In this document: in pieces, positions 14,621 through 31,315 of the stretch | Position numbering within the stretch: the first letter of the stretch is position 1 | Layout: the number at the start of each line of letters is the position of its first letter | Program-made: the position numbers and the translations under genes | Assembly: GCF_002160915.1 (NCBI RefSeq) | Contig: NZ_NFLM01000007.1 | Span: forward strand, 1-64,000 | Origin: Faecalibacterium sp. An121 | Lineage (GTDB): Bacteria; Bacillota; Clostridia; Oscillospirales; Ruminococcaceae | Direction of reading: 5' to 3' | DNA: 64,000 bases | Notes under the pieces: model-generated | Database searches by the model: none | Told to the model about the DNA's origin: nothing | The model's input: only the letters and a program-made list of their open reading frames with translations

Positions 14621-14636
14621 GAAAGGAAGAATCAAA

Positions 14637-14963: not shown

Positions 14964-15319
14964 AGACGATGACGATTGAAGATATGTTTGGGGATCTGCA
15001 CAAGATCGACATTCTGGCAGAAAAACCCGAATCAAAGGAAGTTTTGATGGTCCTCGTCTGCAACGGATTCATTGACGGCTCCCCGGAAACGCAGAAGGCC
15101 CTGCTCGACAAGATGGAAGGCTATCTGAACCACACCCAGAGCGAGGAATTTCAAAAGGAATATGGGGATTGGTCCGTGATTTTGCGTGTGACCCTTGACC
15201 GGGAGCCGGATGAGCGCATCCTGGCCCTGCTCAGTAAGTGCCCCGCATGGGCAGAGGACTACGGCGTAAAGCTGGAAATTGAAATTGGAGGAAAACCGGT
15301 CCGCATTGTAGAGAGTTGA
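14960..15319 (+). CDS. DUF6572-like protein
   Basis: GTG 14960 overlaps the previous stop (GTGA); ATG 14969 is an alternative. The 119 residues include EVLMVLVCNGFIDGS, LLDKMEGYLN and a C-terminal IEIGGKPVRIVES. This resembles DUF6572, which often pairs with DUF5713-type genes. Coupled translation with its neighbour suggests they work in one module. Confidence 0.65.
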   Translation: MKTMTIEDMFGDLHKIDILAEKPESKEVLMVLVCNGFIDGSPETQKALLDKMEGYLNHTQSEEFQKEYGDWSVILRVTLDREPDERILALLSKCPAWAEDYGVKLEIEIGGKPVRIVES

Positions 15320-15355
15320 CCAATGCTCAAACTGAATCAACAGGAGGGAACCATT

Positions 15356-16087
15356 ATGCCGACTGCCGAATGGCTGAACAAATACGAATCCATTAAGGAC
15401 AAACTGGCCTGCAAAGCGGACCTGGACGCCCATTTCACAGAGAAAGTGATTGGGAATATGGGTGTGGATGTGCTGGACATTGGGTCCGTCCATTTCCCTA
15501 CCGGAACCATCTTTGCCTGCGATCCGATGGTGGAGTTGGAGGATACACCGTCCTTTATTCAGACGATCCCCGCCGGGACTTATCCCGTGAAGATCTGCGT
15601 GGTGCCCAGTGAAAAATACGGCGACCGCTACGCCTGCGTCAAGGTGGAGGTCAGCCGGGAAAAGCCTGTCCGCTATGAGCTGGGCATGACTGGCAAAGAG
15701 GATCTGGACGAGGGACTGGATGAGGACGATTATTTTGGCTTTGGCGTAGACGCCGGGATGAGCTGTGTGGCGGACATCCAGACCCAGACGGCTTTCAAGA
15801 CTTACTGGGCCAAGCGGCTGGAGGAAGACCCGGACATCGACCCCTACAACGACCTGTTCTGCGATCTTCTGGAGGAAAACGCCAAAGCCCACCCCAAGTA
15901 TCAGAGCAGCTACGGCGACTGGCTCAACTGGACGGTGCCGGACACGGACTGTAATCTGCCCATCTTTGCCTCCGGCTGGGGCGACGGCTACTATCCCGTC
16001 TACTTCGGCTATGACGCAAAAGGTGAAATCTGCGCCGTGTATGTGCGTTTCATCGACATTGAAGCCAGCTATGGAGAACAGGAGTAA
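15356..16087 (+). CDS. DUF4241 family protein
   Basis: AGGAGG (15342-15347) points to ATG 15356 rather than the upstream ATG 15323; 243 residues. PTGTIFACDPMVEL, the central TIPAGTYPVKICVV, the paired Asp/Glu region, and FASGWGDGYYPVYFGYDA near the end are the DUF4241 pattern. DUF4241 is frequent in immunity loci; function unknown. Confidence 0.8.
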   Translation: MPTAEWLNKYESIKDKLACKADLDAHFTEKVIGNMGVDVLDIGSVHFPTGTIFACDPMVELEDTPSFIQTIPAGTYPVKICVVPSEKYGDRYACVKVEVSREKPVRYELGMTGKEDLDEGLDEDDYFGFGVDAGMSCVADIQTQTAFKTYWAKRLEEDPDIDPYNDLFCDLLEENAKAHPKYQSSYGDWLNWTVPDTDCNLPIFASGWGDGYYPVYFGYDAKGEICAVYVRFIDIEASYGEQE

Positions 16088-16097
16088 ATGACACACC

Positions 16098-16382
16098 ATG
16101 GAATTACCAAAACGGGAGCGGACAGCGGACCGAATCGTGAGGGATACCTATTGGAAATATGAAACATTTGGCTCGGATGGTCAATGCGAATTGTTCGGTG
16201 TGAGCATCTTTGACTATGACTGGCAGCCCACCGGCAAGCGAGTAAAAGTCAAAGACCCAATCTATCACCAGGAGCACACCTTTGAGGTCTGGCAGGTGGA
16301 GATCGACGGGAAAATCCGCCGCTTTGCCGCTGGAGAGTTCTCCAACTGCGTATGGGGATTCTATCTGGAAAAGAACGGATGA
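16098..16382 (+). CDS. Small protein sharing its 5' end with the gene at 52316
   Basis: 94 residues. The first ten, MELPKRERTAD, and the underlying DNA nearly match the start of the LRR gene in the second cluster (MEWPKRARTAD at 52316), after which the proteins differ completely. The rest has GVSIFDYDWQPTGKRVKV and ends FSNCVWGFYLEKNG. Ribosome site weak (AGGAGT, 13-base spacing). Possibly a chimera made by recombination. Confidence 0.6.
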   Translation: MELPKRERTADRIVRDTYWKYETFGSDGQCELFGVSIFDYDWQPTGKRVKVKDPIYHQEHTFEVWQVEIDGKIRRFAAGEFSNCVWGFYLEKNG

Positions 16383-16397
16383 GAGGAGCGTAGCGCC

Positions 16398-17879
16398 ATG
16401 AAAGCCACCGCCGGAGAGGTCTATACAGTCTACAACCAATATCTGAAACGCTACACCGCCTGCCAGGTGGCCTATATCGCGCCGCCGGACACGGTGAGCA
16501 AAGAATCTTGGGCGGTGGTCCTCTCTCTGGATTGGGTGGGCGACGCCCCTCTGACCGCGGAGGAACTGCCCCATCTCCGCCCGCTCTACAAGGACTTCAT
16601 GTACTGGTCCCGCGACCTCCACCTGCTGCGGGTGCCGTTGGAGGTCCCGCCTCAGTACACGCTTGTGGGCACACTGCCCCCCTTCACCGATGAGCCCTGC
16701 CGCTCCTACGGCGGCTGGAGTGACGGCTACGATGTGTACCTCCAGATCCGGTGGCAGGCCATCCCGGAGGAGCGGCGGCGGGCCTTCAAGGAGGCCATGG
16801 AGAGCGACGAGGTGACGGAGATCGGCGGTATCCCAGTGAAGGTCAGCAGCCACCGGATCATGGACTCGTATCCCCCCTTTGATTCGGCGCTGGAGCTGAA
16901 GGCGCTGCCCTGCCTCTCCGCCCTCATCTGTGAGCGGTGGCACCCGGATCTACTGGAGTTTCTGCGGGGGACCCCCTTCCTTGATGAACTGACCCTGCTG
17001 GACCACGGCCAGAGGACCCTGGACCTTCGGGGCACCAGCGTCAGAAAGCTGATGCTGGACATGACCGGGCTGCAGGAGCTGTGGCTGTGTGAGGGAACGG
17101 AGCAGCTCCTGTTCCAGAACAAGGGGCCGGACGCCTGTGCAATCCATGCCCCCGAAGATGGCAGCGGTTTGAACCTCCAATTTATCGGGGAATACCGCCC
17201 GCACACGGAACTGCCGAACCTACGAGGGCTGCATGGCATCGAGCTGAAGGACTTTGATCTGACCGGGCTGGCTGCGGTCCATCCCCATCTGAAGGAGCTG
17301 CGGCTCTGGGGTGCGCCGGGAAACTTGGGGAACTTCTCCGCCGTGGGAGGGTTCCGGGAATTGACGAACCTCTCCACCTATGATCTGTTCGGTTTTGGGG
17401 CGGATGACATCCCCACCCCGGAGCAGATGCCAAACCTCAGATGGTTCTGGATGACCAGCCTGCCGGAGGATGCGGCAAAGGCGGCTAAACGGCTCTGGAA
17501 AGGCAGGCCGGGCATGGACCTGCGGATCACCAAGCCCCGGAAACCGGAGTGGCTGGCGCAAAATTTGGACAATCCCTTCCGGGGCTGGGACGGCGCGGAG
17601 CATATCCCCGCTACTGCCGCAAAAAAGGCGGCCAATCAATACCGCAAGACCCGTGCCCTGCTGATGAAGCTGGCCGCGGAACCGGGCGGGGACGCCCAGG
17701 CCCAGGCGCTGGATGCGGTGGTGGCCTACACCCAGACCTTCAACCAGATGGGCTTCATTGAAACCGAGGAGCGGGATGAGATCTATCTGGCCCTGCGGGG
17801 TATCCTGGATGCCCTGCCGGGCGACACGCTCCAGAAAGATGCCCTGATTGAGAAGTTTGAGGAACTAAGAGATTTTTGA
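16398..17879 (+). CDS. Imm26-like N-terminus plus leucine-rich repeat protein
   Basis: GAGGAG precedes ATG 16398; 493 residues. Residues 1-95 resemble an Imm26-like domain (GEVYTVYNQYLKRYTACQV ... LRPLYKDFM). The centre has LRR-like strands (LPNLRGLHGIELKDFDLTG, HLKELRLWGAPGNL, FRELTNLSTYDL). The C-terminal 110 residues are helical. Close relatives are often database-labelled 'gliding motility protein' without evidence; an immunity role fits the neighbourhood better. Confidence 0.7.
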   Translation: MKATAGEVYTVYNQYLKRYTACQVAYIAPPDTVSKESWAVVLSLDWVGDAPLTAEELPHLRPLYKDFMYWSRDLHLLRVPLEVPPQYTLVGTLPPFTDEPCRSYGGWSDGYDVYLQIRWQAIPEERRRAFKEAMESDEVTEIGGIPVKVSSHRIMDSYPPFDSALELKALPCLSALICERWHPDLLEFLRGTPFLDELTLLDHGQRTLDLRGTSVRKLMLDMTGLQELWLCEGTEQLLFQNKGPDACAIHAPEDGSGLNLQFIGEYRPHTELPNLRGLHGIELKDFDLTGLAAVHPHLKELRLWGAPGNLGNFSAVGGFRELTNLSTYDLFGFGADDIPTPEQMPNLRWFWMTSLPEDAAKAAKRLWKGRPGMDLRITKPRKPEWLAQNLDNPFRGWDGAEHIPATAAKKAANQYRKTRALLMKLAAEPGGDAQAQALDAVVAYTQTFNQMGFIETEERDEIYLALRGILDALPGDTLQKDALIEKFEELRDF

Positions 17880-17891
17880 GGAGGGGCGAGG

Positions 17892-18161
17892 ATGGACCAG
17901 ACAGTAGTTTACAATGGCCAAGTTCTTACTCTGACGCGGTTTTGGGCGACGGGAGAGCCTTGCCTGTGGATCACCGATCCTCAGCAGATCGGGATGCCTA
18001 AAATGGAATTTGTGGGAGGCCACCCGGACGAATACTGCATTTTCCTGAAAAATCTGACTGAAGCAGAGCTGGCACAGATCACATCCCTGGACGGCACTCC
18101 ACTGGATATAAAAGAAGAACGAAACGACATGGAACGAGGTGAACACCATGGAATCAATTAG
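17892..18161 (+). CDS. Uncharacterised 89-aa protein
   Basis: GAGGAGGGG precedes ATG 17892. The protein has VYNGQVLTLTRFWATGEP and FVGGHPDEYCIFLKNL and ends with an acidic/basic tail (KEERNDMERGEHHG). It overlaps the next gene by 14 bases. No family was recognised. Confidence 0.65.
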   Translation: MDQTVVYNGQVLTLTRFWATGEPCLWITDPQQIGMPKMEFVGGHPDEYCIFLKNLTEAELAQITSLDGTPLDIKEERNDMERGEHHGIN

Positions 18162-18885
18162 AAACCCGCTTCCCAAGCCGCCAAAATACATAGATGTGGA
18201 CTATATGACTTTGCCTGACATCGACACCAACCCGCTGTTCTATGATGAGGACGCGCAGGAGATCCTGCTCTATTGGACGGACGGAGAAAAGGTCTTCTGG
18301 GGTTTTTCCCCGGTGTCCAGGGATGTAGAGCATTTTGTCTGGTTCAATCGGCTCTTTGCCAAGGATAGCAAACACTGTTTTCTCCAGGGCAAAAAGCTTC
18401 GGAATGTGGATCACGCCTCGTTCACGGCACTCAACAACTGCTACGCCAGGGATTGTAAAAGTGTCTGGACCACCGGCGGCCGGTTTGAGCCGGAGGATAT
18501 CCGCTCTTTCGTTGTCTGTGATGATGGAGTCAAACTGACGAAGATTAAAGAGATCCGGACCATGTCCGATGGGACACAGCGCCCCATCCGGCTGCGGATT
18601 CCCTACGGATATGCCAAGGACAGCAGGGCCGTGTACTATGAAAACTTTGCCGGCAAGATCAAGATTTTGAAAAAGGCGGATCCCGCCACCTTCGTCTCCA
18701 ACAACGACGGCTATTTCGCATGGGACGCCAAGTCCATCTTCTGGGGCGGTTATCTGCTGCCGAAGGCCGATCTGCAATCCTGGCGGATCGTGAATGCGGA
18801 AAAGGATCTCTCAAGGGATGACGAGCACTTCTATTTCCAGAATAAACGGGTCACAGAAGAAGAATGGAACCAGAAACTGCTCTGA
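18148..18885 (+). CDS. DKNYY family protein, second copy
   Basis: ATG 18148 lies inside the end of the previous gene; 245 residues. Repeats of the type FAKDSKHCFLQGKKL, YAKDSRAVYYENFAGKIK and AWDAKSIFWGGYLL place it with the DKNYY gene at 13325, though the two are not close copies. Both end with a short 'YF.N..I.EE.W' segment. Confidence 0.8.
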   Translation: MESIRNPLPKPPKYIDVDYMTLPDIDTNPLFYDEDAQEILLYWTDGEKVFWGFSPVSRDVEHFVWFNRLFAKDSKHCFLQGKKLRNVDHASFTALNNCYARDCKSVWTTGGRFEPEDIRSFVVCDDGVKLTKIKEIRTMSDGTQRPIRLRIPYGYAKDSRAVYYENFAGKIKILKKADPATFVSNNDGYFAWDAKSIFWGGYLLPKADLQSWRIVNAEKDLSRDDEHFYFQNKRVTEEEWNQKLL

Positions 18886-18904
18886 CGAGAAAGGACGTCC
18901 CCTT

Positions 18905-19384
18905 ATGGCACTGCAAGACAAGAACATCATGCCTCCCCCCTGGCTGGCCTTCCCGGAGATCGAGCGATACTCCATCGGCTGGCGCATGGGCTATGGGGAG
19001 GATTACATAGACCGGTTCGGCCATTGGTTGGACACCCTCATCCCGGGGGAGCGGGCGGAATACCGCGCCCTCTTTCCCGAGCCGGTGAGCTGGAAGGGGT
19101 GGTGGGATGACGAGGACAGCAGCGAGGTGCTGGTACACGGTGACTTCCTGGTGGAGGCGTGGCAGCCGGAGGGCAGGCCCAAGTACACCCGCCAGTGGCT
19201 CCAGCAGGAGTTTGCCGCCGGGCGGAAGCGGGAGCTGTGCCTGTTCTGGGGCCATCAGCTATCCGAGGACGGCCAGCTGACAAAAAGCTGTCTCAGCCAG
19301 TGGTGGATGGAGGACTTCTATACGATGGCTGACTCCTACCTCTGCATGGAGCAGTATATGATGGCGGGCAAAGCCTCCGCGTAG
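18905..19384 (+). CDS. Truncated NADAR-domain protein with N-terminal extension
   Basis: AAAGGA precedes ATG 18905; 159 residues. Residues 1-100 form an unrecognised domain (IGWRMGYGEDY, LFPEPVSWKGWW). From about 110 the sequence FWGHQLSEDGQLTKSCLSQWW...MEQYMMAGKA is the opening of a NADAR (YbiA-like) domain. That family includes ADP-ribose-removing antitoxins. The domain then stops at TAG after about 50 of the usual 140-150 residues, so the catalytic pocket is incomplete and the protein is probably a remnant. Confidence 0.7.
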   Translation: MALQDKNIMPPPWLAFPEIERYSIGWRMGYGEDYIDRFGHWLDTLIPGERAEYRALFPEPVSWKGWWDDEDSSEVLVHGDFLVEAWQPEGRPKYTRQWLQQEFAAGRKRELCLFWGHQLSEDGQLTKSCLSQWWMEDFYTMADSYLCMEQYMMAGKASA

Positions 19385-19399
19385 AAGGAGATTCTCTGT

Positions 19400-19543
19400 A
19401 TGCTGGCGGCGGACGGGATGCACCCGGAGAAGATTGCCCTCCTGCTACGGATGGAGGTGGAGACGGTGCGGGAGATCATGGCCGCCAAGCAAGCCCACAT
19501 TGAGAAATGCAGAAAGAAACTTGAACAGGCGGTGAAACCATGA
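19400..19543 (+). CDS. 47-aa helical microprotein
   Basis: AAGGAG (19385-19390) precedes ATG 19400, and the stop overlaps the next ATG (ATGA). The peptide (HPEKIALLLRMEVETV, then a Lys/Arg-rich helix) looks like a short helix-turn-helix plus a coiled segment. It has proper spacing and signals but no family. It may be a remnant of a regulator or transposase. Confidence 0.5.
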   Translation: MLAADGMHPEKIALLLRMEVETVREIMAAKQAHIEKCRKKLEQAVKP

Positions 19544-20256
19544 AAGACCTATGCCAATACGGAAATAGACGGGAGGATGAATGGGAAATCCTGCCCTGGA
19601 TACCCGATCCGCGCCCGCCCTTCAAAATTTGGGTCAATCCGGAGCAGATCGCGCCATTCTTCCTCATTCCCCACCACCCCTACGCCATCTCCCTTTTGCT
19701 GAAAATCAACGATGGATTCCGGACGGAAGAATTCCGTCGGCTGGGACTGACTGGAAGCAGCGGAGACTGGGAGCGGTTGGTCCGGGGCGTGATACGGGAG
19801 TTCGAGGAAAACAACAGCGGTGTGGGTCTGTTTCACTTCGACTCTGACGAAGATGTGTTCTGCGTGTATTCTCAATACATCGACGATTTGATGATGCTGG
19901 CCAAAATGATCCAAGCGGCCTGTGCCGATGAAAAAACGATGAGGACTTATCTGGGCGGAACCGAGTACATCAAGCTCGTTTGGGAGGACGCACCAGAGGG
20001 AGAGCCGACCATCATCCTCTATGAAGTGGATACCGAAAATGAGCGGCTGGCCATCCGCTCCATCGACATCTTTGCGGATGGCAGCACCCGCAACATCCCT
20101 GACCTCTATGATGGTGCCATCGAAATCACGCCGATCCCCACCGTGGAGGAATTGAACGTCCATGTCTGGGGCGAGGAGTTCCACGCCTGCGTAATAGAGA
20201 AAGCGGAATTTGAGTCCATCTGGGAGAGCCACACCTATGATGGAGCGTTAAAGTAG
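19540..20256 (+). CDS. Imm51-like plus DUF6881 fusion protein
   Basis: ATG 19540 overlaps the previous stop; 238 residues. The first 130 residues (FRTEEFRRLGLTGSSGDWERL, HFDSDEDVFCVYSQYID) resemble Imm51 with its GNGYDW-type motif changed to GSSGDW. From about 145, YIKLVWEDAPEGEPTIILYE ... PIPTVEELN to the end is the DUF6881 domain. Two immunity-type domains in one chain repeats the theme of this array. Confidence 0.75.
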   Translation: MKDLCQYGNRREDEWEILPWIPDPRPPFKIWVNPEQIAPFFLIPHHPYAISLLLKINDGFRTEEFRRLGLTGSSGDWERLVRGVIREFEENNSGVGLFHFDSDEDVFCVYSQYIDDLMMLAKMIQAACADEKTMRTYLGGTEYIKLVWEDAPEGEPTIILYEVDTENERLAIRSIDIFADGSTRNIPDLYDGAIEITPIPTVEELNVHVWGEEFHACVIEKAEFESIWESHTYDGALK

Positions 20257-20271
20257 CCAGGAGGAGACGCT

Positions 20272-21222
20272 ATGAACCAACCTATAAAAGCCAAAAATCT
20301 GCCGCTGTTCTCCATCATGGACCTGAACGAACTGCGCCGGGACACCCATCTGGAGGATGCTGTGTTTTCTGACTTCTCCGTGGGCTGGGATCAGAAGATT
20401 TATTTGTTATTCAAGCAGACGGCAGAATCCCAAGATAAAATTACCGCGAAGACCCCCGCTGACTACACAGTGGCGGAGTTAAAGATGGACTGGGCCGGGG
20501 GAGAAATTCTGGACATGGCGGTATTTCCGCTGGGGCGTCTCAAATTTCAACTTCATTACCTGCGGGCCATTGGTGAGAACTTTCTGCTGTTTCAGGCCCG
20601 GTGCGCCTACCGGGAAAACGGCCCCGAGCAAAACGCCTGGATCGTCAGCCGGGACGGAGCTGTGCTGTCCTGTTTCTGCCTGGGGGATGGCATTCAAGAC
20701 TGTGTGGTAAAAAAAGATGGCACCATCATTACCAGCTACTTTGACGAAGGTGTATTTGGTAATTACGGTTGGGATGAACCTCTGGGCGCTTGCGGCCTGA
20801 TTGCATGGACATCGGAGGGAACTCCACTCTGGAAGAATGAAAAGTATCCCATCTACGACTGCTACGCCATCAGCCTGGACGAAGAAGAAAACCTGTGGTT
20901 CTATTACTACAATGAATTCCGGCTGGTGCGGACGAATTTCAAAGAGGACGCTGTGTTTGAACTGCCGATCGAGGGAAGCGGAGCTTTTTCTGTCGCCCCG
21001 TCTGGTGATACCTTTCTGTTCGAGGGCGGGTACCAGAAGCACGGCAAATTCTACTTCCTGACCGCCCGGGGCGGCCGCCTCGGGCAGAAGCAGAAGGCCG
21101 TTCCCACCTGCGACGGAAAGAAGGTTTCTGTGGAGCGGTGCAGCCTGCTTCGCAGCCGGATGCTGTTCCTCGGAAAAAACGGCGTACTCTATGGAGGCAT
21201 TTGGGGGAGCGATGGCCTATGA
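20272..21222 (+). CDS. Uncharacterised beta-propeller-like protein
   Basis: AGGAGA precedes ATG 20272; 316 residues. The sequence is a run of beta-strand-like units with W/Y and D-G turns (IYLLFKQT, NAWIVSRDGAVLSCF, WFYYYNEFRLVRTN, FLFLGKNGVLYGGI), as in propeller proteins. No motif points to an enzyme. The stop overlaps the start of the next, broken gene (ATGA). Confidence 0.65.
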   Translation: MNQPIKAKNLPLFSIMDLNELRRDTHLEDAVFSDFSVGWDQKIYLLFKQTAESQDKITAKTPADYTVAELKMDWAGGEILDMAVFPLGRLKFQLHYLRAIGENFLLFQARCAYRENGPEQNAWIVSRDGAVLSCFCLGDGIQDCVVKKDGTIITSYFDEGVFGNYGWDEPLGACGLIAWTSEGTPLWKNEKYPIYDCYAISLDEEENLWFYYYNEFRLVRTNFKEDAVFELPIEGSGAFSVAPSGDTFLFEGGYQKHGKFYFLTARGGRLGQKQKAVPTCDGKKVSVERCSLLRSRMLFLGKNGVLYGGIWGSDGL

Positions 21223-21629
21223 AACAGGCAGATATTTATACCGAGGCTCTGGTCTGTCTGCGCACCATTCTTCAGACGGACCACCCGGAATTCCAAAACT
21301 GGATCGACTAGCTGGAGCGGGACATTCAGGACTGGACCCAGCGGCGGGAGGTTGGCCATCACCTCCGGGCCTACGGAGGCATGGGTTCGTTCAACGACCT
21401 GCCCAATATGCGGGGAAATCACGACTACATCTTTGAGTTCCTCAAGTCCGTGTGCTATGCCTTCGGCCACCTCTACGGCAAGCGTGAGGGTGTTTCTCCA
21501 GAGGCCCTGATGGAAGAATGCGCCCGCGACACAGAGCAGGCGTCCTACCACCCGCGCAAGGAGCTGAACCGAGCCATTGCCCGCCATTTGAGGCAGGGCA
21601 ATCTACAGGAGAACCTGGATAGGTTGTGA
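21219..21629 (+). pseudogene. DUF6966-like gene with an in-frame TAG
   Basis: ATG 21219 overlaps the previous stop. The frame reads MKQADIYTEALVCLRTILQT and goes on to FQNWID, then hits TAG at 21309-21311. The same frame continues without another stop for 106 codons to 21629 (YGGMGSFNDLP, ASYHPRKELNRAI, ENLDRL), which is clearly the rest of one protein of about 136 residues with a DUF6966-like core. A single sense-to-amber change explains it. The rest of the frame is intact, so the loss is recent or the stop is read through at some level. Confidence 0.8.
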
Positions 21630-21638
21630 GGTGAGCAC

Positions 21639-22304
21639 ATGGCAAAGGGCATCCGTGAACGCCTGCTGGAGCAGGCAATCAAGTTTCATCAATGGCAGGA
21701 AGCCACTTATCCCGGCAAAACCAGCGAGGAACTCGGCGGTGAGTGGGAAGTCGATTATCCATACTGGAATGATACTTACAGTGCCTTCTGCCAGGTGTTG
21801 ACCCAAATGGATGCAGAAACGGCAGACAGCGTCCTGCTGGATGAGATGGTCTATCTGATCGCCAGGGACAACGAAGCGGAGGGGTTTATACAGGAGACCA
21901 CTTCCCATCCCCAATGGTTCGAGTGCCTCTGCCGCAGGGCCGCAGCCTCCAATGAAAGTGAGGCCAAGTGGCAGTTTGCCGCTTATCTGCCAGAATGTCC
22001 ATGCAGCCAGGAAGTCAAAGACATGATCCTGGACTTCGCAAAGGACCCCAATGAATATGTGAGCCGGCGGGCGCTTTTGGCGATGCCCGCTCTGCGTCCT
22101 GACTGTGTGGAACAGTTCGCTCCGCTGTTCTGGGAGCGGAACTGTTATTCCCTCGAATTACAGGAATACCAGCGGATCGCGGTTCTGGTCTCGCTGGACG
22201 CCATCCATTCCGGCCTGCTTCCACAATACTTGGAGCAGGCCAAGCAGGATGGCCGGCGCTATCTGCTGGAACACGCAGAAAGGATCGAAGGAGGACTACT
22301 GTGA
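21639..22304 (+). CDS. Uncharacterised helical-repeat protein
   Basis: GAGGTGAG precedes ATG 21639; 221 residues. Helix pairs such as CSQEVKDMILDFAKDPNEYV followed by RRALLAMPALRP suggest short HEAT-like repeats. The stop overlaps a GTG start (GTGA) that has a perfect AAGGAGG ahead of it. Confidence 0.7.
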   Translation: MAKGIRERLLEQAIKFHQWQEATYPGKTSEELGGEWEVDYPYWNDTYSAFCQVLTQMDAETADSVLLDEMVYLIARDNEAEGFIQETTSHPQWFECLCRRAAASNESEAKWQFAAYLPECPCSQEVKDMILDFAKDPNEYVSRRALLAMPALRPDCVEQFAPLFWERNCYSLELQEYQRIAVLVSLDAIHSGLLPQYLEQAKQDGRRYLLEHAERIEGGLL

Positions 22305-22360
22305 ACGAAAATTTATTCCGCTTTAAGAAAGAAAAAGGTATTTGGAGAACGACAAAATAA
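22301..22360 (+). pseudogene. 5' stump of a lost gene (19 codons)
   Basis: GTG 22301 has a perfect AAGGAGG (22288-22294) and overlaps the previous stop, exactly as real starts in this array do, but the frame ends at TAA 22358-22360 as the base composition turns AT-rich. It looks like the beginning of a gene whose body was replaced by the AT-rich segment that carries the next gene. Confidence 0.5.
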
Positions 22361-22387
22361 AATTTGAGATGGAGATTAAGAGCTAAT

Positions 22388-22798
22388 ATGACAGATATTC
22401 ACGACTTAGTGCCAAAAAATAAATTTGATAGCTCAAATATAGAGAGGCTAAAACACCTTACTGACAATGAGATTGAGCCGATATTACCCTCTCTTTTGGA
22501 GTGGATACAGGACTGTAATTGGCCTGTTGCTGGTGATATTTTGCCGGTGCTCGCTTTACACCAATCAGCCCTTGTCCCTTTAATTCATAGAGTTTTAAGT
22601 CCACATGAAAAAGACGACATATGGAAGTATTGGATTATCACCTGTCTGGCACCTCTTTTTTCCGATGAGAGCATAAATTGTATTCTCTCAGATATACAGA
22701 GGATTGCAAAAAGTCCTACACAGGGCGAATTAAGAGAAGAAGTACATGAAGCCGCTGTCATCTTCTTGCAGAACAGACTATCAAAAACAGGTCGATAA
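22388..22798 (+). CDS. DUF5071 family protein, AT-rich insert
   Basis: 136 residues starting MTDIHDLVPKNKFDSSNIERL, with PSLLEWIQDCNWPVAGDILPVL and a WKYWIITCLAPLF helix, the DUF5071 signature. The gene and its flanks (about 22310-22800) are visibly AT-rich against GC-rich neighbours, and its ribosome site is weak. It was probably acquired later than the rest of the array. Confidence 0.8.
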   Translation: MTDIHDLVPKNKFDSSNIERLKHLTDNEIEPILPSLLEWIQDCNWPVAGDILPVLALHQSALVPLIHRVLSPHEKDDIWKYWIITCLAPLFSDESINCILSDIQRIAKSPTQGELREEVHEAAVIFLQNRLSKTGR

Positions 22799-23024
22799 CT
22801 TCCCATTTATCGGGGAGATAGCAAAGCCAACCGAGCCAGCAACGGTCAAGATGAACTGCACATTTCATAAGCCGCCGCTGACAGCCTCGACTGTCTTTGC
22901 TGATAGGCAATCAAGCCGGTCTTTCGGCAGATGGCAGATATCAAAAAGGAAAATCTGGACACCCGGCTGTGGGGCCGGTGTGGAACCTACTATTTACAGA
23001 AAAAAGACTGAAGGAGGCGTCGAT

Positions 23025-23873
23025 ATGGATGTCATCAAACTGCCTAAAAAATTCCGCATGGTCTGCTATGAGATCATGGACGGCAAGGACGGGGCCCTGG
23101 ACACCCTGGAGACCTTTGCCGACAAATATCCCCATCAGGTGGCGGCGGTGAAGGCGGAGGCGGCCTATTTTGAGCTGGGCTATGAACATGCGCTGGATCT
23201 GGATCTCACCGTCCTCCCCTGGCTGGAGGAGTGGTATTACAGCAATGTGAGCGATGAACACATGACTGCTATGACGGTGGCCGCCATCCAGCTCCACCGG
23301 GAGCAGGAGATGATCGATGCGCTGACAAAGGAACAGGCGCGCATCCGGGCGGAGAACGGCCGGCCCCAGCGGGACCGCTTCTGCGATATCCTGATGGACT
23401 GCCTCCGGCGGGGCGTCATGCCCTTCTCGGACAACGACCGGAACTACCCCTACCGTGATCCGGAGGAGCCCCAGACGAAGGAGCAGCTTTGGGCAAAGCT
23501 GGCGGAGCAGAACAAGAAGCTCTCCCCGGACGATCCCGACGCCAAACGGAAGCTCTACAACCACTGCTGTATGTTCGGCACTGCCAAGGATGCGGTGGAG
23601 CTGTTCGAGGAGATTCAGGGCGTGCCCATGGCTGACTCCTCCTATCGGGACGCAATCGCCCGCTATCTCTATTTAGGCGAACGGGAGAAGGCGCTCCAGA
23701 CAGCGGAGCGGTTGGCAACATCGCGGCTGTGGGCGGTGGCCGGGCCGACCCAGGTGCGCCCCATGTCCTTCTTTGAGGACCCGAACCTGCGGGAGTTTTT
23801 GCTGGAACCGGAATCCCTCCGGCGCATCCGGGAAGCTGCCTTTATTGATGACGGGAGTTTGATCCGAAAGTAA
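23025..23873 (+). CDS. TPR-like protein of unknown function
   Basis: AAGGAGG (23011-23017) sets ATG 23025; 282 residues, with helical pairs (LDTLETFADKYPHQVAAVKA, then AKDAVELFEEI, REKALQTAERLAT). The 226 bases before it hold only a short open stretch ending DTRLWGRCGTYYLQKKD that may be the tail of a destroyed gene; no complete gene was seen there. Confidence 0.7.
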   Translation: MDVIKLPKKFRMVCYEIMDGKDGALDTLETFADKYPHQVAAVKAEAAYFELGYEHALDLDLTVLPWLEEWYYSNVSDEHMTAMTVAAIQLHREQEMIDALTKEQARIRAENGRPQRDRFCDILMDCLRRGVMPFSDNDRNYPYRDPEEPQTKEQLWAKLAEQNKKLSPDDPDAKRKLYNHCCMFGTAKDAVELFEEIQGVPMADSSYRDAIARYLYLGEREKALQTAERLATSRLWAVAGPTQVRPMSFFEDPNLREFLLEPESLRRIREAAFIDDGSLIRK

Positions 23874-23898
23874 ATTGATTGGGAATGGAGGATCTGCC

Positions 23899-24249
23899 AT
23901 GAGCAAGGAACTGGAACTGTATAAAGCATTTATTGACGGCCTTGTGGATCGGAAGAACAGCATAACGGCCCGGTGGGTCAAGGGGGATGGCTTTCCCAGG
24001 ACGGAGGACAACAAGGCGAAAAATGAATTTCTCGCCGCACTGACACCGGAGCAGAAAGGTGTGCTGGCTGAGATGCTTCAGGACGAACATGTTGCGGGTA
24101 TTCACGATACCCTTGCATATATCAATGAGATGATGGATCTGGATGGGCTGGAGCTGCGTCAGGACGAGGTATCCCTTCCCAACGACTATTTTGAGAGCCT
24201 GCACTATGACTTCATCAGCCGTTGTGACGGCGATGAATGGCCGGAATAA
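23899..24249 (+). CDS. DUF6547-like protein
   Basis: GGAGGA (23887-23892) precedes ATG 23899; 116 residues. ELYKAFIDGLVDRKNSITAR, LTPEQKGVLAEML and GIHDTLAYINEMMD fit the DUF6547 pattern as I remember it. Helical, cytoplasmic, no catalytic motif. Confidence 0.65.
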   Translation: MSKELELYKAFIDGLVDRKNSITARWVKGDGFPRTEDNKAKNEFLAALTPEQKGVLAEMLQDEHVAGIHDTLAYINEMMDLDGLELRQDEVSLPNDYFESLHYDFISRCDGDEWPE

Positions 24250-24264
24250 AAGGAGGCGTGACGG

Positions 24265-27200
24265 ATGTATATCCAAAAATACTGGGGCAACTACATTGGC
24301 GGCTCGGATGACAGCCTGAACCTGGTGGAGTTTCTGGTGGACCAGAAGAAAGAGGAGGTTCCCCTGGGCGAAATCTTCGCCAAAATCGGACTGGACAAGC
24401 AGAACTGGGACTTCCGCCAGACTGTGGAGTATCTGGAGTTCACCCACTCGGGTGGCGTGGAGATGGACTTTCACTTCGCCATTGATGTGGTCACTGACCT
24501 GGCTGCCATCCTGCTGGAGTGCAGCGTCAGCGGCAGTGTAAACCTCCAGGACCTGGACGAGTACAACACCCCCGCCCGCTGCATCCGCATCACCGCCACG
24601 CCAGAGGAACACGACGCCATGAAAAAAGCCCTGACGGACTTTGCCCAGAATCCGCTGGAATATGACCTCAGTGAGATGATGGATGAGGACGAGATCCGGG
24701 AGATGGCCCGGGATGTGGAGGCCCTGCGGAAGGAGCTGTACGAGTCCGGCGGCCGCAACCGGGACTTCATCATCCCTCTGCTGAACACCCCTACCCCATG
24801 CGCCTTTGAGCGGGATGAGAATGGCGTGTTCCAGCAGATCAAAGACTGGAAACCGGAACAGGACGAGGAGGAACAAGATATGGATATTTTGAAGCAGTGC
24901 CAGAAATGGAATGAGGAGAACGAATTCCAGAAAATCATCGACGCGCTGGAGGCCATCCCCGCCGAGGAACGCACCCCGGAGATGGACAGCGAACTGGCCC
25001 GGGCCTACAACAATCTGGCGGACCCACATAAGCCGACTTGCAGAGAAATGCTTAAAAAAGCCCTCGCTCTGTTAAAGCCCCATGAGGAATACTTCGAGGG
25101 AGACTACTACTGGAACTTCCGCATGGGGTATGCCTACTACTATCTGGACCAGGAGGGCCGCGCCCTGCGGTACTTTGAAAAAGCATTGGAAGCTCGTCCC
25201 GGCGACGAGGATACCAAAGAGTTTATCGAATGGTGCAGGAAGGGCATTTCCCTGCCGCAGTTCTGGGAGTGCTTCCGGGAGCGGACAGAGAACTGGTGGG
25301 AAACCTTTGCCGAGATGGAAGCAGAATTGCGGCAGATGATGGACGACGACAAGGACCATACCCGCGGCGCCGAACTCGTAGCCCAAATGGAAGGGGCTTT
25401 GAACCAGGCGTTTGACGAAATCTCCTTCGAGATGGGCTTCAATGGCGAGAAGCATGAGCTGATCCTCACCCCGGAGGGTGACAAGGTCAAGCTGTTTGAG
25501 CTGATCTACTTCCAGAAGCACGCCCCCAGGGAGGTGCTGGAGCATTGGAACATCCTGGTGGGCCGTCAGCCCCTCCAGAATATCGGCCTGCGCACCGAGG
25601 ATGGCTGGGACATCTCCGGGGAGGATGTGCAGGTCTGGCTGGAGGAGCAGGGTGAAAACAGCTTTGCCATCTCCGCCTACTGCGAAAAGCTGCTGCCTAT
25701 GCTCCGGGAGGCGGAAGGCCGTGTCTGGTGGATGCTCACCACCCTCACCGACCAGGTGCTGGGCGAGATCTCCCACATGTGGTACATTGACGATTTCGAT
25801 GTACTGGATCAGCCCAAGGCAGAGCCGTCCTTCCTCCTGTCCCAGCTGCCTGACAAACTGAAAGAAAAGGGAGCGAACCTTACCACCGATCCGGAAGCCT
25901 ATCTGGAGAGCTACCTTGGCTACGAAATGGAACCCAACAAGGACCCGGACGCTGACTGGCGGCTGGATGTAATGGCCGGCTCCACCTGCTGTGTGCCGCT
26001 CATCAATGGCTATCTGAACGGGGACAACGATTTTATGGATGCTCTCCATGCCGACGGCGCAGTGGCGGGCTTCTTCTGCTATCCCCTGGACACCCTGCGG
26101 GAGGAAAAAGGATCGGAGAAGATCTTCGCCTTCCGGGACAAGTTGGAGGAATTGTTCAGCACCGGCGACGGCCCGGAGATCCTCACCCTCACCGGCGGAG
26201 CCACCGGCCTTTTCTGCGGCTATGTGGACTTCATCGCCTGGGACATCCAAACGGCGCTCCAGATGGCCAAGGAGTTCTTTGAGGGCACGGACATCCCCTG
26301 GGCCAGCTTCCACACCTTCCGCCGGGAGGCGGGCACAGTAGCCCTGAAAAAGCCGCCCGAGAAAGAGCCGGAGGGCAGCGAGGATACCGCTGAGCTGGAC
26401 GAGACGCTGTCCGGTATGGACTACATCCCCTACACCCCAGAAAACGCCGAGGACTTTTTTGCACAGATCGAGCAGTGGAACAATGAGGATGCGTTCCTCC
26501 GCTGCATCCAGGCGCTGAACGCTATCCCGGAGAACCAGCGGAACTACCGCACCGCCTACGCCATGGCGCGGGCGCTGGAAAACTACGCAGTTTTGGGCGA
26601 CCATCAGGAGGAGCTCCCCTACTACAAGGCAGAAAAAGCCCTGCTCCGGGCCATCGAGGTGCTGGAGTCCGTCCGGGAGGAGGGCCAGGACAAAGCCCAG
26701 TGGAATATGCGGATGGCCTATGGCTATCAGTATCTCAACCGGCAGGAAGAAAAGGCCATCCCCTATGCCCAGCGGTGGGCGGAACTGGCCCCCGAGGATG
26801 AGGACGCTCCGGCTGTGATCCAGGAGTGCCAGAAAGAGATCGACAAGCGGGGCAAGGCTGTGGACGAGGACGAGAGTGACACCGACCGCACCGGCGTCTT
26901 CACCGGCTTTGTGCTGCTGTCCAAGGGAGAATGGGACAAACAGCAGTTCATCCGGGACATAAAGGAAAAGTGGGACATCCCCGTGGATGAATCCGACGCC
27001 AGCGGGGAGAAGGACGACGACGTCCTGGTGTTTGAGGTGGGCGATATGCTCGCCGCCGTCAGTCTGAATAACTATCCTATCCCCGGCGGCGAGGCCGAGG
27101 TCAACGCGGAAAACAACTATATGTGGGAAGATGCGGTCAAGGTTGCCAGGGAGCACCGCGCCCACATTCTGGTGGCGGTGCTGGGCAAAGAGAAAGATCT

Positions 27201-29661
27201 GCTGGAAAAGGGCAGACTGTTCACCAAGGTGGTGGCCGCCTGCTGCCGCCAGAAGTATGCCACCGGCGTCTATACCAGCGGCGTGGTGTTCGAGCCCCGG
27301 TTCTATGAGGGCTTTGCCGATATGCTGAAGGGGGACGAACTGCCCATTTTCAACTGGATCTGGTTCGGCCTCTGGCGGAATGAGAAGGGTCTGAACGGCT
27401 ACACTTACGGCATGGAGGCCTTCGGCAAAGACGAGATGGAGGTACTGGGCGCCGACGCTGAGCCGGGTGACCTGCGGGACTTTTTGGCCAGCCTCGCCTC
27501 CTATGTGCTGGGAAGCGATGTGGAGCTCCACGACGGGGAAACCATCGGCTTTACGGCGGATGACAAGCACGCCATCACCCGCAGCCCCGGCGTCGGTCTG
27601 CCGGAGGACCAGATGACCCTGAAAATCTCCTGGGAGCCGTCGGAGGGCGGCCCGGAGGACGAAGGAGAAGATGACCCGGACCCTGAAACGCCCCATGAGC
27701 CGGAGGGCGAAGCGCCCAATGGTGAAGAAACTGGCGCTCCCGAGGTCTACTCCGAGGAGGAAATGGAGGCCATTGAAGGGCACATCCAGCAGTATTTCGG
27801 CAATTTTGAGACCGTGTTTCACGAGTTGAGTTCCCCCGACATCCATGTGGACATCTGCGTGGTGCCGCCTTCTGAGGAACATGACTATTACACACTGGTG
27901 ACGATGGGCATGGGCGCCCACCGGATGAATGTGCCCGAGGAACTGGCCGAATACAAGCTGGAGCGGGCGGAGCTGGCCATCGCCCTGCCCAAGGACTGGA
28001 AGCTGAAGCAGGAGGACATGAAAGACGATCGGTGGTACTGGCCCATCCGCCTGCTGAAATCCCTGGCCCGTCTGCCCATTGCCAGCGACACCTGGTTGGG
28101 CTGGGGCCACACCATGGACAATCAGGAGCCTTTTGCACCGGATACGGAGCTGTGCGCCGCCATCCTGACCGGCCCCCAGGGAACGGAGGACGGCAGCGAA
28201 TTCTGCACCCTGCCCGGCGGCGAGGAGATCAACTTCTACCAGGTGATCCCCCTCTACCGGGACGAGCTGGAGTATAAGCTGGCCCACGACGCGGACGCCC
28301 TGCTGGACAAAATGGAGGGCATCAGCTTTGTGGTGAAGCCTGACCGTCAGGATGCTATCACTCGTGGCACCCTTTCCAATGATGATTTTGACGGTGAGAT
28401 GGACGATGCCTCCTATCATATCGAGAGCATTGAGGAGAAGGGTCTGCCCATTGACCCCATCAATGCCTACAACCATATGGCCATCTACTTGCGTTGGTGC
28501 ATGGAGCATGATTTGATGGGCGAGGAATTTCTGAAAGAATACGGCGAAGTGATCAAACAGGTCAAAGCCGACCCTGCCAGTGTGGACCTGCGGGCATTCA
28601 TCCAGAATGAGTTGGACGGCTGCTTGTTCTCTGTGCTATTCAATCAGCAAGGCCGTGCTTTTGCAGGCTATTACTATGGAGAGGGCGACAGCCCCTACTA
28701 TCCTGCCGATGTTGATGACAACGCCCTCCGCTTCTTCGGCCCGGAGCGGTATCACTCCAATGAGTTCCAAGATGAAGCCTACCTGTTTATCCCCTTTGAC
28801 GAGGACTACTACCAGGCCATGGCAAAGGTAATCGAGAAACGCTTTGAAAACTGGCAGGGACAGGACTTCGACGAGGATACGCTGGAACCCTCCGAACTGG
28901 CTGAGGCGTTGATGGAGTATCTGGACTGCGAGTGTACCTATTTTCCCTCCATGAAGGACGATGATCCCATCATGTCGGCATACAGCTATGCCAAACGGGA
29001 AAGTGTCAAAGAAGGCTTTGTGCCGGTGCTCATCAAGGCGGATGATGAAACGCTGTTGGAGTGTCTGGTGATGAACGCCGACCCGGAGAATGATGCGGAC
29101 ATTTACGAATTTGACCTTAAAGCTGTAACGGAGTACCGGAAGAAGATGCTCTCCGCCCCCATCAAGGACGGAAAGGCGGTTTTGGAGGAATTGACCGGCC
29201 AGCGCAAGGAAGAAGCCGAGGACGATGATATGGACTGGAATGAGGAAGTCCTGGGCGAGATGGAGGGCGGCTATGAGAATAACCGTTTCTCCTGCTACTG
29301 GAATTCTGACACCGATATGACCTATCCCCTTATTCTGGCTAAGATCCCGGTGAAGAACCCCTGGGAGATCTTTGCCTACCTGCCCTTCGGAAACTGGAAC
29401 GACTGCCCTGACACACCCCAGCTGATGGCAGCGGCCAAATACTGGTTCGAGCAGTACGGTGCGGTGCCCGCCGCCATGACCCACGACGAGCTGGAGTTCC
29501 TGCTCCCGGTCCCCGTCCCCAAGGAGAAGGCCATGGATGCGGCGGTAGAGCTGTACGGTTTCTGCCCCGATGTGATCGACCAGGGGCCGGAGGACGCCAC
29601 CGTGGGCGCTTTGGCCGATGTGCTGCGGCAGTCCACCGTCTGGTACTTCTGGTGGGATTGA
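24265..29661 (+). CDS. Giant 1,798-aa multidomain immunity protein
   Basis: AAAGGAGG precedes ATG 24265. Domains in order, by rough residues: 1-205, unnamed (WGNYIGGSDDSLNLVEFL); 206-330, TPR; 331-697, unnamed; 727-864, second TPR; 876-1126, DUF4261 (FTGFVLLSKGEW, LNGYTYGMEAFGKDEMEV, ETIGF); 1169-1356, SUFU (DYYTLVTMGMGAHRMNVP, WYWPIRLLKSLARLP); 1395-1532, DUF7832-like (MAIYLRWCMEH); 1555-1798, DUF4253 (PWEIFAYLPFGNWNDCP, ending WYFWWD). An in-frame ATG at 24880, spaced 7 bases from GAGGAGGA (24865-24872), marks the start of the first TPR, as if two genes had fused or a shorter form is also made. No signal peptide or membrane segment is seen. Confidence 0.85.
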   Translation: MYIQKYWGNYIGGSDDSLNLVEFLVDQKKEEVPLGEIFAKIGLDKQNWDFRQTVEYLEFTHSGGVEMDFHFAIDVVTDLAAILLECSVSGSVNLQDLDEYNTPARCIRITATPEEHDAMKKALTDFAQNPLEYDLSEMMDEDEIREMARDVEALRKELYESGGRNRDFIIPLLNTPTPCAFERDENGVFQQIKDWKPEQDEEEQDMDILKQCQKWNEENEFQKIIDALEAIPAEERTPEMDSELARAYNNLADPHKPTCREMLKKALALLKPHEEYFEGDYYWNFRMGYAYYYLDQEGRALRYFEKALEARPGDEDTKEFIEWCRKGISLPQFWECFRERTENWWETFAEMEAELRQMMDDDKDHTRGAELVAQMEGALNQAFDEISFEMGFNGEKHELILTPEGDKVKLFELIYFQKHAPREVLEHWNILVGRQPLQNIGLRTEDGWDISGEDVQVWLEEQGENSFAISAYCEKLLPMLREAEGRVWWMLTTLTDQVLGEISHMWYIDDFDVLDQPKAEPSFLLSQLPDKLKEKGANLTTDPEAYLESYLGYEMEPNKDPDADWRLDVMAGSTCCVPLINGYLNGDNDFMDALHADGAVAGFFCYPLDTLREEKGSEKIFAFRDKLEELFSTGDGPEILTLTGGATGLFCGYVDFIAWDIQTALQMAKEFFEGTDIPWASFHTFRREAGTVALKKPPEKEPEGSEDTAELDETLSGMDYIPYTPENAEDFFAQIEQWNNEDAFLRCIQALNAIPENQRNYRTAYAMARALENYAVLGDHQEELPYYKAEKALLRAIEVLESVREEGQDKAQWNMRMAYGYQYLNRQEEKAIPYAQRWAELAPEDEDAPAVIQECQKEIDKRGKAVDEDESDTDRTGVFTGFVLLSKGEWDKQQFIRDIKEKWDIPVDESDASGEKDDDVLVFEVGDMLAAVSLNNYPIPGGEAEVNAENNYMWEDAVKVAREHRAHILVAVLGKEKDLLEKGRLFTKVVAACCRQKYATGVYTSGVVFEPRFYEGFADMLKGDELPIFNWIWFGLWRNEKGLNGYTYGMEAFGKDEMEVLGADAEPGDLRDFLASLASYVLGSDVELHDGETIGFTADDKHAITRSPGVGLPEDQMTLKISWEPSEGGPEDEGEDDPDPETPHEPEGEAPNGEETGAPEVYSEEEMEAIEGHIQQYFGNFETVFHELSSPDIHVDICVVPPSEEHDYYTLVTMGMGAHRMNVPEELAEYKLERAELAIALPKDWKLKQEDMKDDRWYWPIRLLKSLARLPIASDTWLGWGHTMDNQEPFAPDTELCAAILTGPQGTEDGSEFCTLPGGEEINFYQVIPLYRDELEYKLAHDADALLDKMEGISFVVKPDRQDAITRGTLSNDDFDGEMDDASYHIESIEEKGLPIDPINAYNHMAIYLRWCMEHDLMGEEFLKEYGEVIKQVKADPASVDLRAFIQNELDGCLFSVLFNQQGRAFAGYYYGEGDSPYYPADVDDNALRFFGPERYHSNEFQDEAYLFIPFDEDYYQAMAKVIEKRFENWQGQDFDEDTLEPSELAEALMEYLDCECTYFPSMKDDDPIMSAYSYAKRESVKEGFVPVLIKADDETLLECLVMNADPENDADIYEFDLKAVTEYRKKMLSAPIKDGKAVLEELTGQRKEEAEDDDMDWNEEVLGEMEGGYENNRFSCYWNSDTDMTYPLILAKIPVKNPWEIFAYLPFGNWNDCPDTPQLMAAAKYWFEQYGAVPAAMTHDELEFLLPVPVPKEKAMDAAVELYGFCPDVIDQGPEDATVGALADVLRQSTVWYFWWD

Positions 29662-29819
29662 TGAGGGTTCGGCAAACGATAGAAAATAAAACACTCACCA
29701 TTCAGCTGAACGGAACGGAAAACCAGAATGCAACGTTGTCCGAATTTAGAACCTTGAAGGATTTCTATAACAAGTGTCAGGACTTTCAAGGGGATGATAG
29801 TTGTGGGTATCTATTGTGA
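29661..29819 (+). CDS. 52-aa small protein overlapping the giant gene's stop
   Basis: ATG 29661 shares its A with the TGA of the giant gene. The peptide (TIENKTLTIQLNGTE, FYNKCQDFQGDDSCGYLL) is AT-richer than its neighbours and ends shortly before the next ribosome site. It could be a whole small protein or the start of a shortened immunity gene. Confidence 0.5.
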   Translation: MRVRQTIENKTLTIQLNGTENQNATLSEFRTLKDFYNKCQDFQGDDSCGYLL

Positions 29820-29834
29820 CTGAGAGGTGGCAAC

Positions 29835-30386
29835 ATGGAGAAGAAGGATTTCCCCAAGGAAACCAAGCCCCGCGAGATCTTCGTCTATACCTGTGAGCGG
29901 ATCGCGGAGCCCTTGATTCCGCTGGGTTACAAATACCGCAAGAGCAAAAATGATATCTACAAAAAAGACGGCATCTTTGTGTTCTCTTTTTACTTTTCCC
30001 CCTCCATCCGCTTTGGCTCCACCACTTTTACTGCCTTCTTCGATGTGAGTTCCCCGGTGATTGCCCGATGGCGCAGCGAGAGGGAGAGGCATGAGGAGAC
30101 TTATGACGGTATCGTAGGCACCTCCATCGCCCGGCTGACCCGCCGGTATGATGATTTCCCCCGCTATGAGGTGTCCACCCTGCTGGAGCGGGAACGCTCT
30201 ATCCAGGAGATTTCCGGGCAGATCCAGGACTATGCCCTGCCGTTCTTTGCCCGGTTTTCCGACTTGCCGAAGCTGCTGGATGATGTGGAACGGGAGGGGT
30301 TCTTTCCCCATCGGAAGGGGTTCGATGTCCCTAAGCGGAATCGGGAGTTCATCGAATGCTTCCGGGAGTATCTCCAAAAGCAGTAG
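29835..30386 (+). CDS. DUF4304-like protein
   Basis: GAGAGG precedes ATG 29835; 183 residues. CERIAEPLIPLGYKYRKSKN and FVFSFYFSPSIRFG resemble the N-terminal fold of DUF4304, followed by an Arg-rich middle (RWRSERERHEE) and DYALPFFARFSDL. Frequent in polyimmunity-type loci; function unknown. Confidence 0.6.
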   Translation: MEKKDFPKETKPREIFVYTCERIAEPLIPLGYKYRKSKNDIYKKDGIFVFSFYFSPSIRFGSTTFTAFFDVSSPVIARWRSERERHEETYDGIVGTSIARLTRRYDDFPRYEVSTLLERERSIQEISGQIQDYALPFFARFSDLPKLLDDVEREGFFPHRKGFDVPKRNREFIECFREYLQKQ

Positions 30387-30406
30387 GATTCAGCAGAGAG
30401 GAACAA

Positions 30407-30904
30407 ATGCCTATGTCAAACAGACGAGTATCCACCTGGAGTGGAATCCGAAACAAGCTGGAAAATGATTACCTGTGCCCGGCGCTCCGGGGTCACATCC
30501 AATATTTTGCCACCAGTTACAGCAAAAGCGCCGACCATGAGGGCCGGGCAGCCATTCGCATGGACGGCGTGGAAGTGCTGCGAAGCAACTACTACACCTA
30601 TTTCGAGAATGTGTGGACGAAATTTCATCACCTGCGGTCCACAACGCTGAAAGATTGCGACTGTGCAAAAGAGGCCATCAACCAGGCTCATGCCTTTGCA
30701 CTGGAGCAGGGCACCTTTGACCAAAAGGTATTCTATGAGGCGTTTGGGATCTTTGACAACCAGAGCATTGAGAAAAGCCTTGTCAGCGAGAATCCCCCGG
30801 ACTGGGACCTGCCCGCCGGGACGGTGCAGAGCGGCCTAGAAACCCTGCTCTCCCATCTTGGACTGGTGCAGGGTGGCACCGCCCTGCTGTATGAAATGAC
30901 TTGA
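30407..30904 (+). CDS. SF0329 family-like protein
   Basis: GAGAGGA precedes ATG 30407 (another ATG at 30413); 165 residues. The start WSGIRNKLENDYLCPALRGH followed by IQYFATSYSKS and a GRAAIRMDG turn matches the small SF0329 family of uncharacterised proteins. The C-terminal half (FEAFG-type helix, NQSIEKSLVSENPPDW) is unique. Confidence 0.6.
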   Translation: MPMSNRRVSTWSGIRNKLENDYLCPALRGHIQYFATSYSKSADHEGRAAIRMDGVEVLRSNYYTYFENVWTKFHHLRSTTLKDCDCAKEAINQAHAFALEQGTFDQKVFYEAFGIFDNQSIEKSLVSENPPDWDLPAGTVQSGLETLLSHLGLVQGGTALLYEMT

Positions 30905-30955
30905 CGGGACTATGCCCATGCCAAGGATGCAGGTCAAGGAACGGAGAGAAATACC

Positions 30956-31315
30956 ATGGTGAGAGATGGACTTGTGTTCAAAATAGATGAGGATTGGCAG
31001 GTCATATTCAATCAGTACAGCTTCTGCGAACTGGTGAAGCATCTGCTGGTGAAGCTGGTGGGGATCTCCTATGAAGAAGCCTCTCAGATTGTGGAACGCT
31101 CACCGCTGGCAGAGCCAGTGGCCGATGCCTTGGGAGTGGCGATATTCAGCCATGACCTGCCTTATTACTGGGCAATGTTTTTCTACTATGGGAATGGTTA
31201 TTGGTGGGAAGACAAGGGTATTCCAGCGCAGCCAGAGGATATGGATTCCTATGAAGCTCTGGAAAAGCGGATTATGGAGAAATACCACTTAAAGGAGCCG
31301 TTTATATGGACATGA
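30956..31315 (+). CDS. Uncharacterised 119-aa protein
   Basis: GGAGAG precedes ATG 30956. Short alpha/beta protein with ISYEEASQIVERSPLAEPV and an aromatic segment (YYWAMFFYYGNGYWWED). Its end overlaps the start of the truncated barstar gene. No family was recognised. Confidence 0.7.
   Translation: MVRDGLVFKIDEDWQVIFNQYSFCELVKHLLVKLVGISYEEASQIVERSPLAEPVADALGVAIFSHDLPYYWAMFFYYGNGYWWEDKGIPAQPEDMDSYEALEKRIMEKYHLKEPFIWT

Follow-up and report, generated by a model that had tools for sequence, protein, structure and literature searches.

Polyimmunity proteins, in which several immunity domains are joined in a single polypeptide, were described by Zhang et al. in 2012 (PMC3482391). They carry up to 10 domains and are exemplified by gi 160893617 of Clostridium sp. 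L2-50, and fusions of Imm68 with SuFu, SUKH, Imm33, and TPR domains already appear there, with no toxin given for Imm68 in the table. The same work describes heterogeneous polyimmunity loci, wherein co-oriented immunity-type genes are separated by short gaps, toxin genes are missing, and recombinases are sometimes adjacent; recombinases of the XerC/D type are noted beside polyimmunity loci. Polyimmunity proteins and extended polyimmunity loci are said there perhaps not to occur in the same bacteria, which is a tendency and not a definition. In the portions of the text that were available, the word “conjugative” and the names DUF4261 and DUF4253 are absent. A second set of related systems comprises the AID and rAID loci of Bacteroidales, which are arrays of orphan immunity genes found in several gut species and linked to tyrosine recombinases (PMC12247911). 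The rAID genes are short single genes (about 100–300 codons) directed against type VI secretion (PMC12247911).

Here we examine a 1,798-amino acid (aa) chain encoded in a 64,000-nucleotide stretch of Faecalibacterium DNA (the window). Judged by its domains, the chain is a polyimmunity protein of the kind described in 2012, and the kind itself is not new: Imm68, SUFU, DUF4261, DUF7832, and DUF4253 lie in one polypeptide, and relatives add Imm33 and SUKH. As in the described proteins, several unrelated immunity domains and TPRs are combined in one Firmicutes chain within a toxin-free operon. Unlike them, this chain lies inside an extended polyimmunity operon, it contains DUF4261, DUF4253, DUF7832, and a region that we call X1, and its relatives reside on a conjugative element. 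Some of these four modules may correspond to Imm66, Imm67, or Imm69 of the earlier work. The surrounding operon resembles the heterogeneous loci in the orientation and spacing of its genes, but it includes two multi-domain chains, and a conjugative element carries its relatives as cargo. The likeness to AID and rAID loci lies in the occurrence of orphan immunity arrays in several species of gut bacteria and in a similar way of working. In contrast to rAID, we find a giant fused protein in Bacillota, and relatives carry it on an element that has transfer genes. No repeated intergenic motif, a conserved trait of rAID arrays, was seen in the operon, and no recombinase was present among the Pfam-scanned window genes. 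Literature searches on polyimmunity, DUF4261/DUF4253, and orphan immunity with mobile elements, which covered titles and abstract openings of mostly non-subscription sources, returned no such chain on a conjugative element.

We propose, with a probability of roughly 0.7, that the chain is a polyvalent immunity protein that exchanges modules and is spread by integrative conjugative elements.

One open reading frame joins immunity-type modules and two TPR blocks

The chain is encoded by an intact single ORF that begins with an ATG, with the sequence AAGGAGG located 8 nt before it. Its parts are as follows.

24265..29661, plus strand: polyimmunity chain, 1,798 aa (Pfam, conservation, selection)
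24268..24738, plus strand: Imm68 (PF15583), aa 2–158 (Pfam, E 1.3e-41)
24769..24840, plus strand: Imm33 remnant, aa about 169–192 (whole 86-aa domain at the same place in relatives)
24877..25251, plus strand: TPR block a, aa 205–329 (sub-threshold Pfam, model, profile)
25252..26364, plus strand: X1, alpha/beta region, aa 330–700 (model; without a Pfam match)
26437..26859, plus strand: TPR block b, aa 725–865 (homology to block a, model)
26869..27636, plus strand: DUF4261 module, aa 869–1124 (Pfam aa 1046–1121, E 5e-20)
27721..28386, plus strand: SUFU module, aa 1153–1374 (Pfam aa 1192–1362, E 7e-49)
28387..28896, plus strand: DUF7832 module, aa 1375–1544 (Pfam aa 1379–1497, E 1.5e-34)
28897..29658, plus strand: DUF4253 module, aa 1545–1798 (Pfam aa 1691–1798, E 1.6e-30)

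The Imm68, DUF4261, SUFU, DUF7832, and DUF4253 matches all lie above the curated Pfam cut-offs. A sequence-only reading of the window had proposed this ORF, with the last four of these domains, and its coordinates proved exact. That reading began the chain with a TPR, a position that is instead taken by Imm68, which it had overlooked. Its claim of two TPR blocks holds by structure and homology but not by Pfam, whose TPR matches in the window chain reach 17.2 bits against a cut-off of 27, although they exceed the cut-off in relatives L043, L044, L048, and L051. A profile comparison links block a to designed TPR proteins (E 2e-5), and block a in turn shares 34% identity with block b (hhalign probability 99.5), which marks the two as homologous; an AlphaFold2 model places helical repeats at both (block pLDDT 73–95). 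The two blocks flank X1 and are the sole related pair found by hhalign among the modules of the chain.

X1 is an alpha/beta region in the AlphaFold2 model (mean pLDDT 83.8, pTM 0.61). A Foldseek comparison of the modeled TPR-X1-TPR segment with the PDB gave no match at E <= 0.001 among 1,210, and the best 50 of these were mainly TPR-type and other helical-repeat proteins. For a model of SUFU-DUF7832-DUF4253 (mean pLDDT 72, with a poor SUFU portion), Foldseek was uninformative, and a PDB sequence search with the chain found no relative at E 0.01. On the minus strand opposite the chain, an ORF of 1,145 aa spans 25072–28509 and is probably an effect of composition.

Relatives carry Imm33 after Imm68, and most of this domain has been lost in frame from the window copy. 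By DNA alignment with relative L034, ~84 codons are missing in frame and the final ~24 residues of Imm33 remain. Imm33 does occur in the operon's second chain.

The chain is part of a co-oriented operon

The genes around the chain run in the same direction, and the features to which we refer are listed here.

1756..31315, plus strand: polyimmunity operon, ~29 kb, about 35 predicted ORFs, gaps mostly short
5170..7275, plus strand: second chain, 701 aa, with a TPR-like block, SUFU, DUF7832, and Imm33
23899..24249, plus strand: DUF6547 gene, whose end lies 15 nt upstream of the chain
29835..30386, plus strand: DUF4304 gene after the chain (Pfam)

Twelve of 30 scanned ORFs in or beside the operon scored above Pfam cut-offs, namely the two chains and the matches to DUF6138, DUF7021/DUF2262 (twice), DKNYY, DUF5713, DUF4241, DUF5071, DUF6547, DUF4304, and SF0329. 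Most of these matches are to DUFs, families for which an immunity role is putative. No toxin family was found among the 30 Pfam-scanned ORFs of 487–31708, a set that excludes three larger ORFs in 18139–20256 and several short ones. The two DUF7021-DUF2262 paralogues occupy 4284–5126 and 11125–11964. Scans for promoters (5 found, 4.3 expected) and terminators (13 found, 10.1 expected) were uninformative. From 31.9 kb onward the scanned genes are unlike those of the operon and include MarR, DUF3169, a UmuC-type polymerase, hydrogenase, and complex I-like genes. The polymerase gene, together with a sub-threshold YolD-like neighbor, lies at 34368–36339 on the minus strand.

Chain architecture is conserved and under purifying selection

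Within the same family, 64 of 197 genomes match some part of the chain, the genome of the window included. An extra open frame in genome G004 was rejected, as it passes through N. A separate scan of named genomes, which used two patterns in Imm68, yielded 64 loci, so that chains without Imm68 are under-sampled. These loci are not independent, since some share a genome and L082 and L083 are 99.98% identical, and 8 of the 64 contain N. Module order is identical in the best ORF of every locus, of which 57 are informative and 7 show Imm68 only. The complete module set is present in one ORF in 32 loci (L109, one of these, contains N), and a SUKH domain lies between TPR block b and DUF4261 in 15 of these chains and is absent from the other 17. 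The remaining loci lack a module, reach a contig edge, or contain breaks, and 4 of them have SUKH without SUFU. The whole chain is thus conserved in other genomes with the same order of modules, and conservation of the whole chain is what the sequence-only reading had named as support for its proposal.

Selection was measured with 25 of the 32 complete chains; L067, L076, L079, L080, L090, L099, and L109 were omitted by hand before any result, without a formal rule. All eight scored modules are under purifying selection (median dN/dS 0.09–0.21; each module has one to three saturated pairs).

These data bear on whether errors of sequencing or assembly joined separate genes, an outcome that the sequence-only reading had named as the one that would overturn it. 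Modules do form separate genes in some loci, and frames are broken in some relatives, including L070, L077, and L103, which contain no N, so that some copies of the chain are not intact. However, the 32 complete in-frame chains include records titled complete genome (L066, L068, L072, L078, L084, and L089), purifying selection extends along the frame, and all of those assemblies would need to share the same errors. We consider such a merger to have a negligible chance of being the explanation.

Modules are gained, lost, and probably exchanged

SUKH, Imm33, SUFU, and TPR block b are each absent from some chains. Identity to the window chain also changes by module. For DUF7832 it is 97–98% in three relatives (L054, L056, and L062), 89–94% in 9, and 68–80% in 13, and for DUF4261 it is 69–70% in the 8 SUKH-containing chains used and 80–86% in the 17 others. 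Such a mosaic is as expected from module exchange. A further 522-aa ORF (G000:C12; L003 1384–2952) has the same TPR block (47% identity) and a different C-terminal part.

Domains that are joined in the window chain occur as neighboring genes elsewhere, in agreement with the proposal of the sequence-only reading that immunity-type domains otherwise found separately are combined here with two TPR blocks. L052 has one gene each for TPR-X1, DUF4261, SUFU, and DUF4253, in this order. In L146, a row of genes encodes Imm68-TPR-X1, an RtcB-like protein, a product with no match, SUFU, DUF4261, and SUFU-DUF7832-DUF4253. The RtcB-like gene (L146 3832–5040) stands between the parts of the split chain. Single-module frames were common in the search of family genomes, and DUF4261 elsewhere forms single genes of about 260–290 aa. 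Because of the separate genes in the same order and the common single-module frames, the chain resembles a fusion product, and it probably arose by the joining of adjacent genes of a polyimmunity operon. In the opposite direction, the separate module genes would be products of fission of the chain.

The same observations weigh on a scaffold model, wherein the chain would organize one large TPR-bound complex devoted to one function in the cell and the immunity-like domains would be binding modules and not antidotes. The fixed module order in the named loci and the retention of TPR blocks in most of their chains are consistent with this model. However, modules come and go and also occur as separate genes, as would be expected of independent units more than of one machine, and we regard the scaffold model as improbable.

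In some hosts, relatives of the chain reside on an integrative conjugative element

In Hungatella, Holdemania, Emergencia, and CCNA10, the chain lies on related DNA that includes a relaxase gene. Seven other genomes or records were searched, and these 4 have the relaxase frame (470–471 aa), located 9–21 kb upstream of the chain. As for the rest, the nearest relaxase in the Faecalibacterium genome G199 is a 593-aa frame on the opposite strand about 10 kb away, G201 has a sub-threshold relaxase match about 30 kb away, and the searched record OY725843.1 yielded none. Elements with the same ends measure 69,320 bp in Hungatella, 74,604 bp in CCNA10, and 64,161 bp in Holdemania. Emergencia has most of the element in common up to the right end, and the right end is also present in OY725843.1. 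The Hungatella copy encodes a T4SS coupling protein (VirD4), TrbL_2, TraG P-loop ATPase (VirB4-like), CHAP, and CD1107-like, in addition to the relaxase, a tyrosine-type integrase, ArdC-N, an SNF2-type giant protein, and WYL, IrrE-type, and PemK/MazF-like proteins. Judged from these sequences, the element in Hungatella, CCNA10, and Holdemania is a 64–75-kb integrative conjugative element.

At the left end, the same element sequence follows three different host sequences, which by eye resemble 3′ parts of tRNAs, although ARAGORN calls no tRNA there. An identical 3′ part of a tRNA is brought in at the right end, where a full tRNA-Arg(cct) results in CCNA10 and Holdemania; in Hungatella there is a tRNA call at neither element end. 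When the flanks are joined, CCNA10 yields a complete tRNA-Arg(cct), Holdemania an irregular tRNA, and Hungatella none.

The window operon is collinear in pieces with the cargo of the element, from 4.8 to 30.9 kb. Window base 1 is also the first base of the contig (C60), on which no relaxase gene was found, and no tRNA gene was found in the 64-kb window. Matches to the 465-aa integrase of the element occur in 9 of 15 genomes or records and matches to VirD4 in 13 of 15, and these searches did not place the element beside the chain in the genome of the window. Apart from the element hosts, only G201 is tied by coordinates, through a VirD4 relative (30% identity) about 27 kb from the chain. About 20 kb outside the operon, the window encodes a 333-aa protein (51010–52011) that has no Pfam match; its counterpart, at 78% identity, is the cargo protein whose gene immediately precedes the chain in the Hungatella element.

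Location on an element raises the question of whether the modules serve the element instead, by blocking toxic effectors of recipient defense or toxin–antitoxin systems during establishment. In Hungatella, the cargo operon starts about 1.8 kb after the relaxase gene and could enter early, the element also has genes for a protein with an ArdC-N domain and for a PemK/MazF-like toxin, and leading regions of plasmids are known to hold anti-defense genes (PMC11541004). Nevertheless, the transfer origin and direction on which this timing depends are putative, and PMC3482391 associates Imm33, SUKH, and SUFU with polymorphic toxins and gives none for Imm68. Moreover, PADLOC gave no match for the chain, and one of the 10 proteins scanned (window 1756–2877) weakly matches a HEAT/ARM model. 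We therefore view a pure counter-defense role as unlikely. It is similarly doubtful, if conceivable, that the conjugative element both spreads the fused multi-antidote gene and uses it in its own establishment, such that effectors of recipient defense and the toxins of rivals are disarmed alike. If this were true, the chain would serve the element and the host at once.

The chain has moved between classes of gut Bacillota

Chain DNA is 88.5–96.8% identical among Hungatella, Holdemania, Emergencia, a Faecalibacterium, and CCNA10 (10 pairs), and the rpoB loci of these five hosts are 66.8–76.8% identical over aligned parts (10 pairs). Hungatella belongs to the class Clostridia and Holdemania to the class Erysipelotrichia. 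On these sequence comparisons, the chain has been transferred between different classes of gut Bacillota.

More distant occurrences were also recorded. A genome of Atopobium minutum (L087) contains the SUFU-DUF7832-DUF4253 part at 93–95%, and two metagenome-assembled genomes, which may reflect binning errors, contain a chain without SUFU (L088, Spirochaetaceae) and Imm68-Imm33 (L104, Sutterella). Two phage records gave partial and weak matches. Nine plasmid records match, and the full chain is present in one of them, OY725843.1 (L118), whose integrase is identical to that of the Hungatella element. The plasmid label of this record is doubtful because the sequence runs beyond the right end of the element into DNA like the tRNA-Arg host side of CCNA10, and the record may be a chromosomal piece.

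A proposed polyvalent and mobile immunity protein

We favor the view that Imm68, X1, DUF4261, SUFU, DUF7832, and DUF4253 act as separate antidote units, each most likely directed at a different toxin delivered by competing bacteria, which it would bind and block, as their family membership suggests. To our knowledge, no function has been tested for DUF4261, DUF4253, DUF7832, or X1. The TPR blocks would serve as spacers and as sockets at which modules join or drop out. The sequence-only reading had proposed several neutralizing surfaces on one molecule or, alternatively, a putative common partner held by the TPR blocks. Such a chain would be born by fusion of neighboring polyimmunity-operon genes and would then change through gain, loss, and allele exchange of modules such as SUKH, Imm33, and SUFU. 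Related operons would travel as cargo on integrative conjugative elements with tRNA-Arg(CCU) as their insertion site, and the chain would thereby pass between classes of gut Bacillota.

Searches of 8 carrier genomes or records detected LXG toxins in none and WXG100 in one, so no kin toxin of that type was seen among them. Antidotes that outnumber kin toxins would be in keeping with a defense against non-kin, as argued in PMC3482391.

Beyond the 2012 description, the present findings comprise near-identical chains across classes of gut Bacillota, which in some hosts reside on a conjugative element. This suggests a Gram-positive counterpart to the orphan immunity arrays known from Gram-negative Bacteroidales. 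X1, DUF4261, DUF4253, and DUF7832 are candidate new antidotes. Defense against many toxins may pass on as one gene, and the gain and loss of its modules can be read from genomes.
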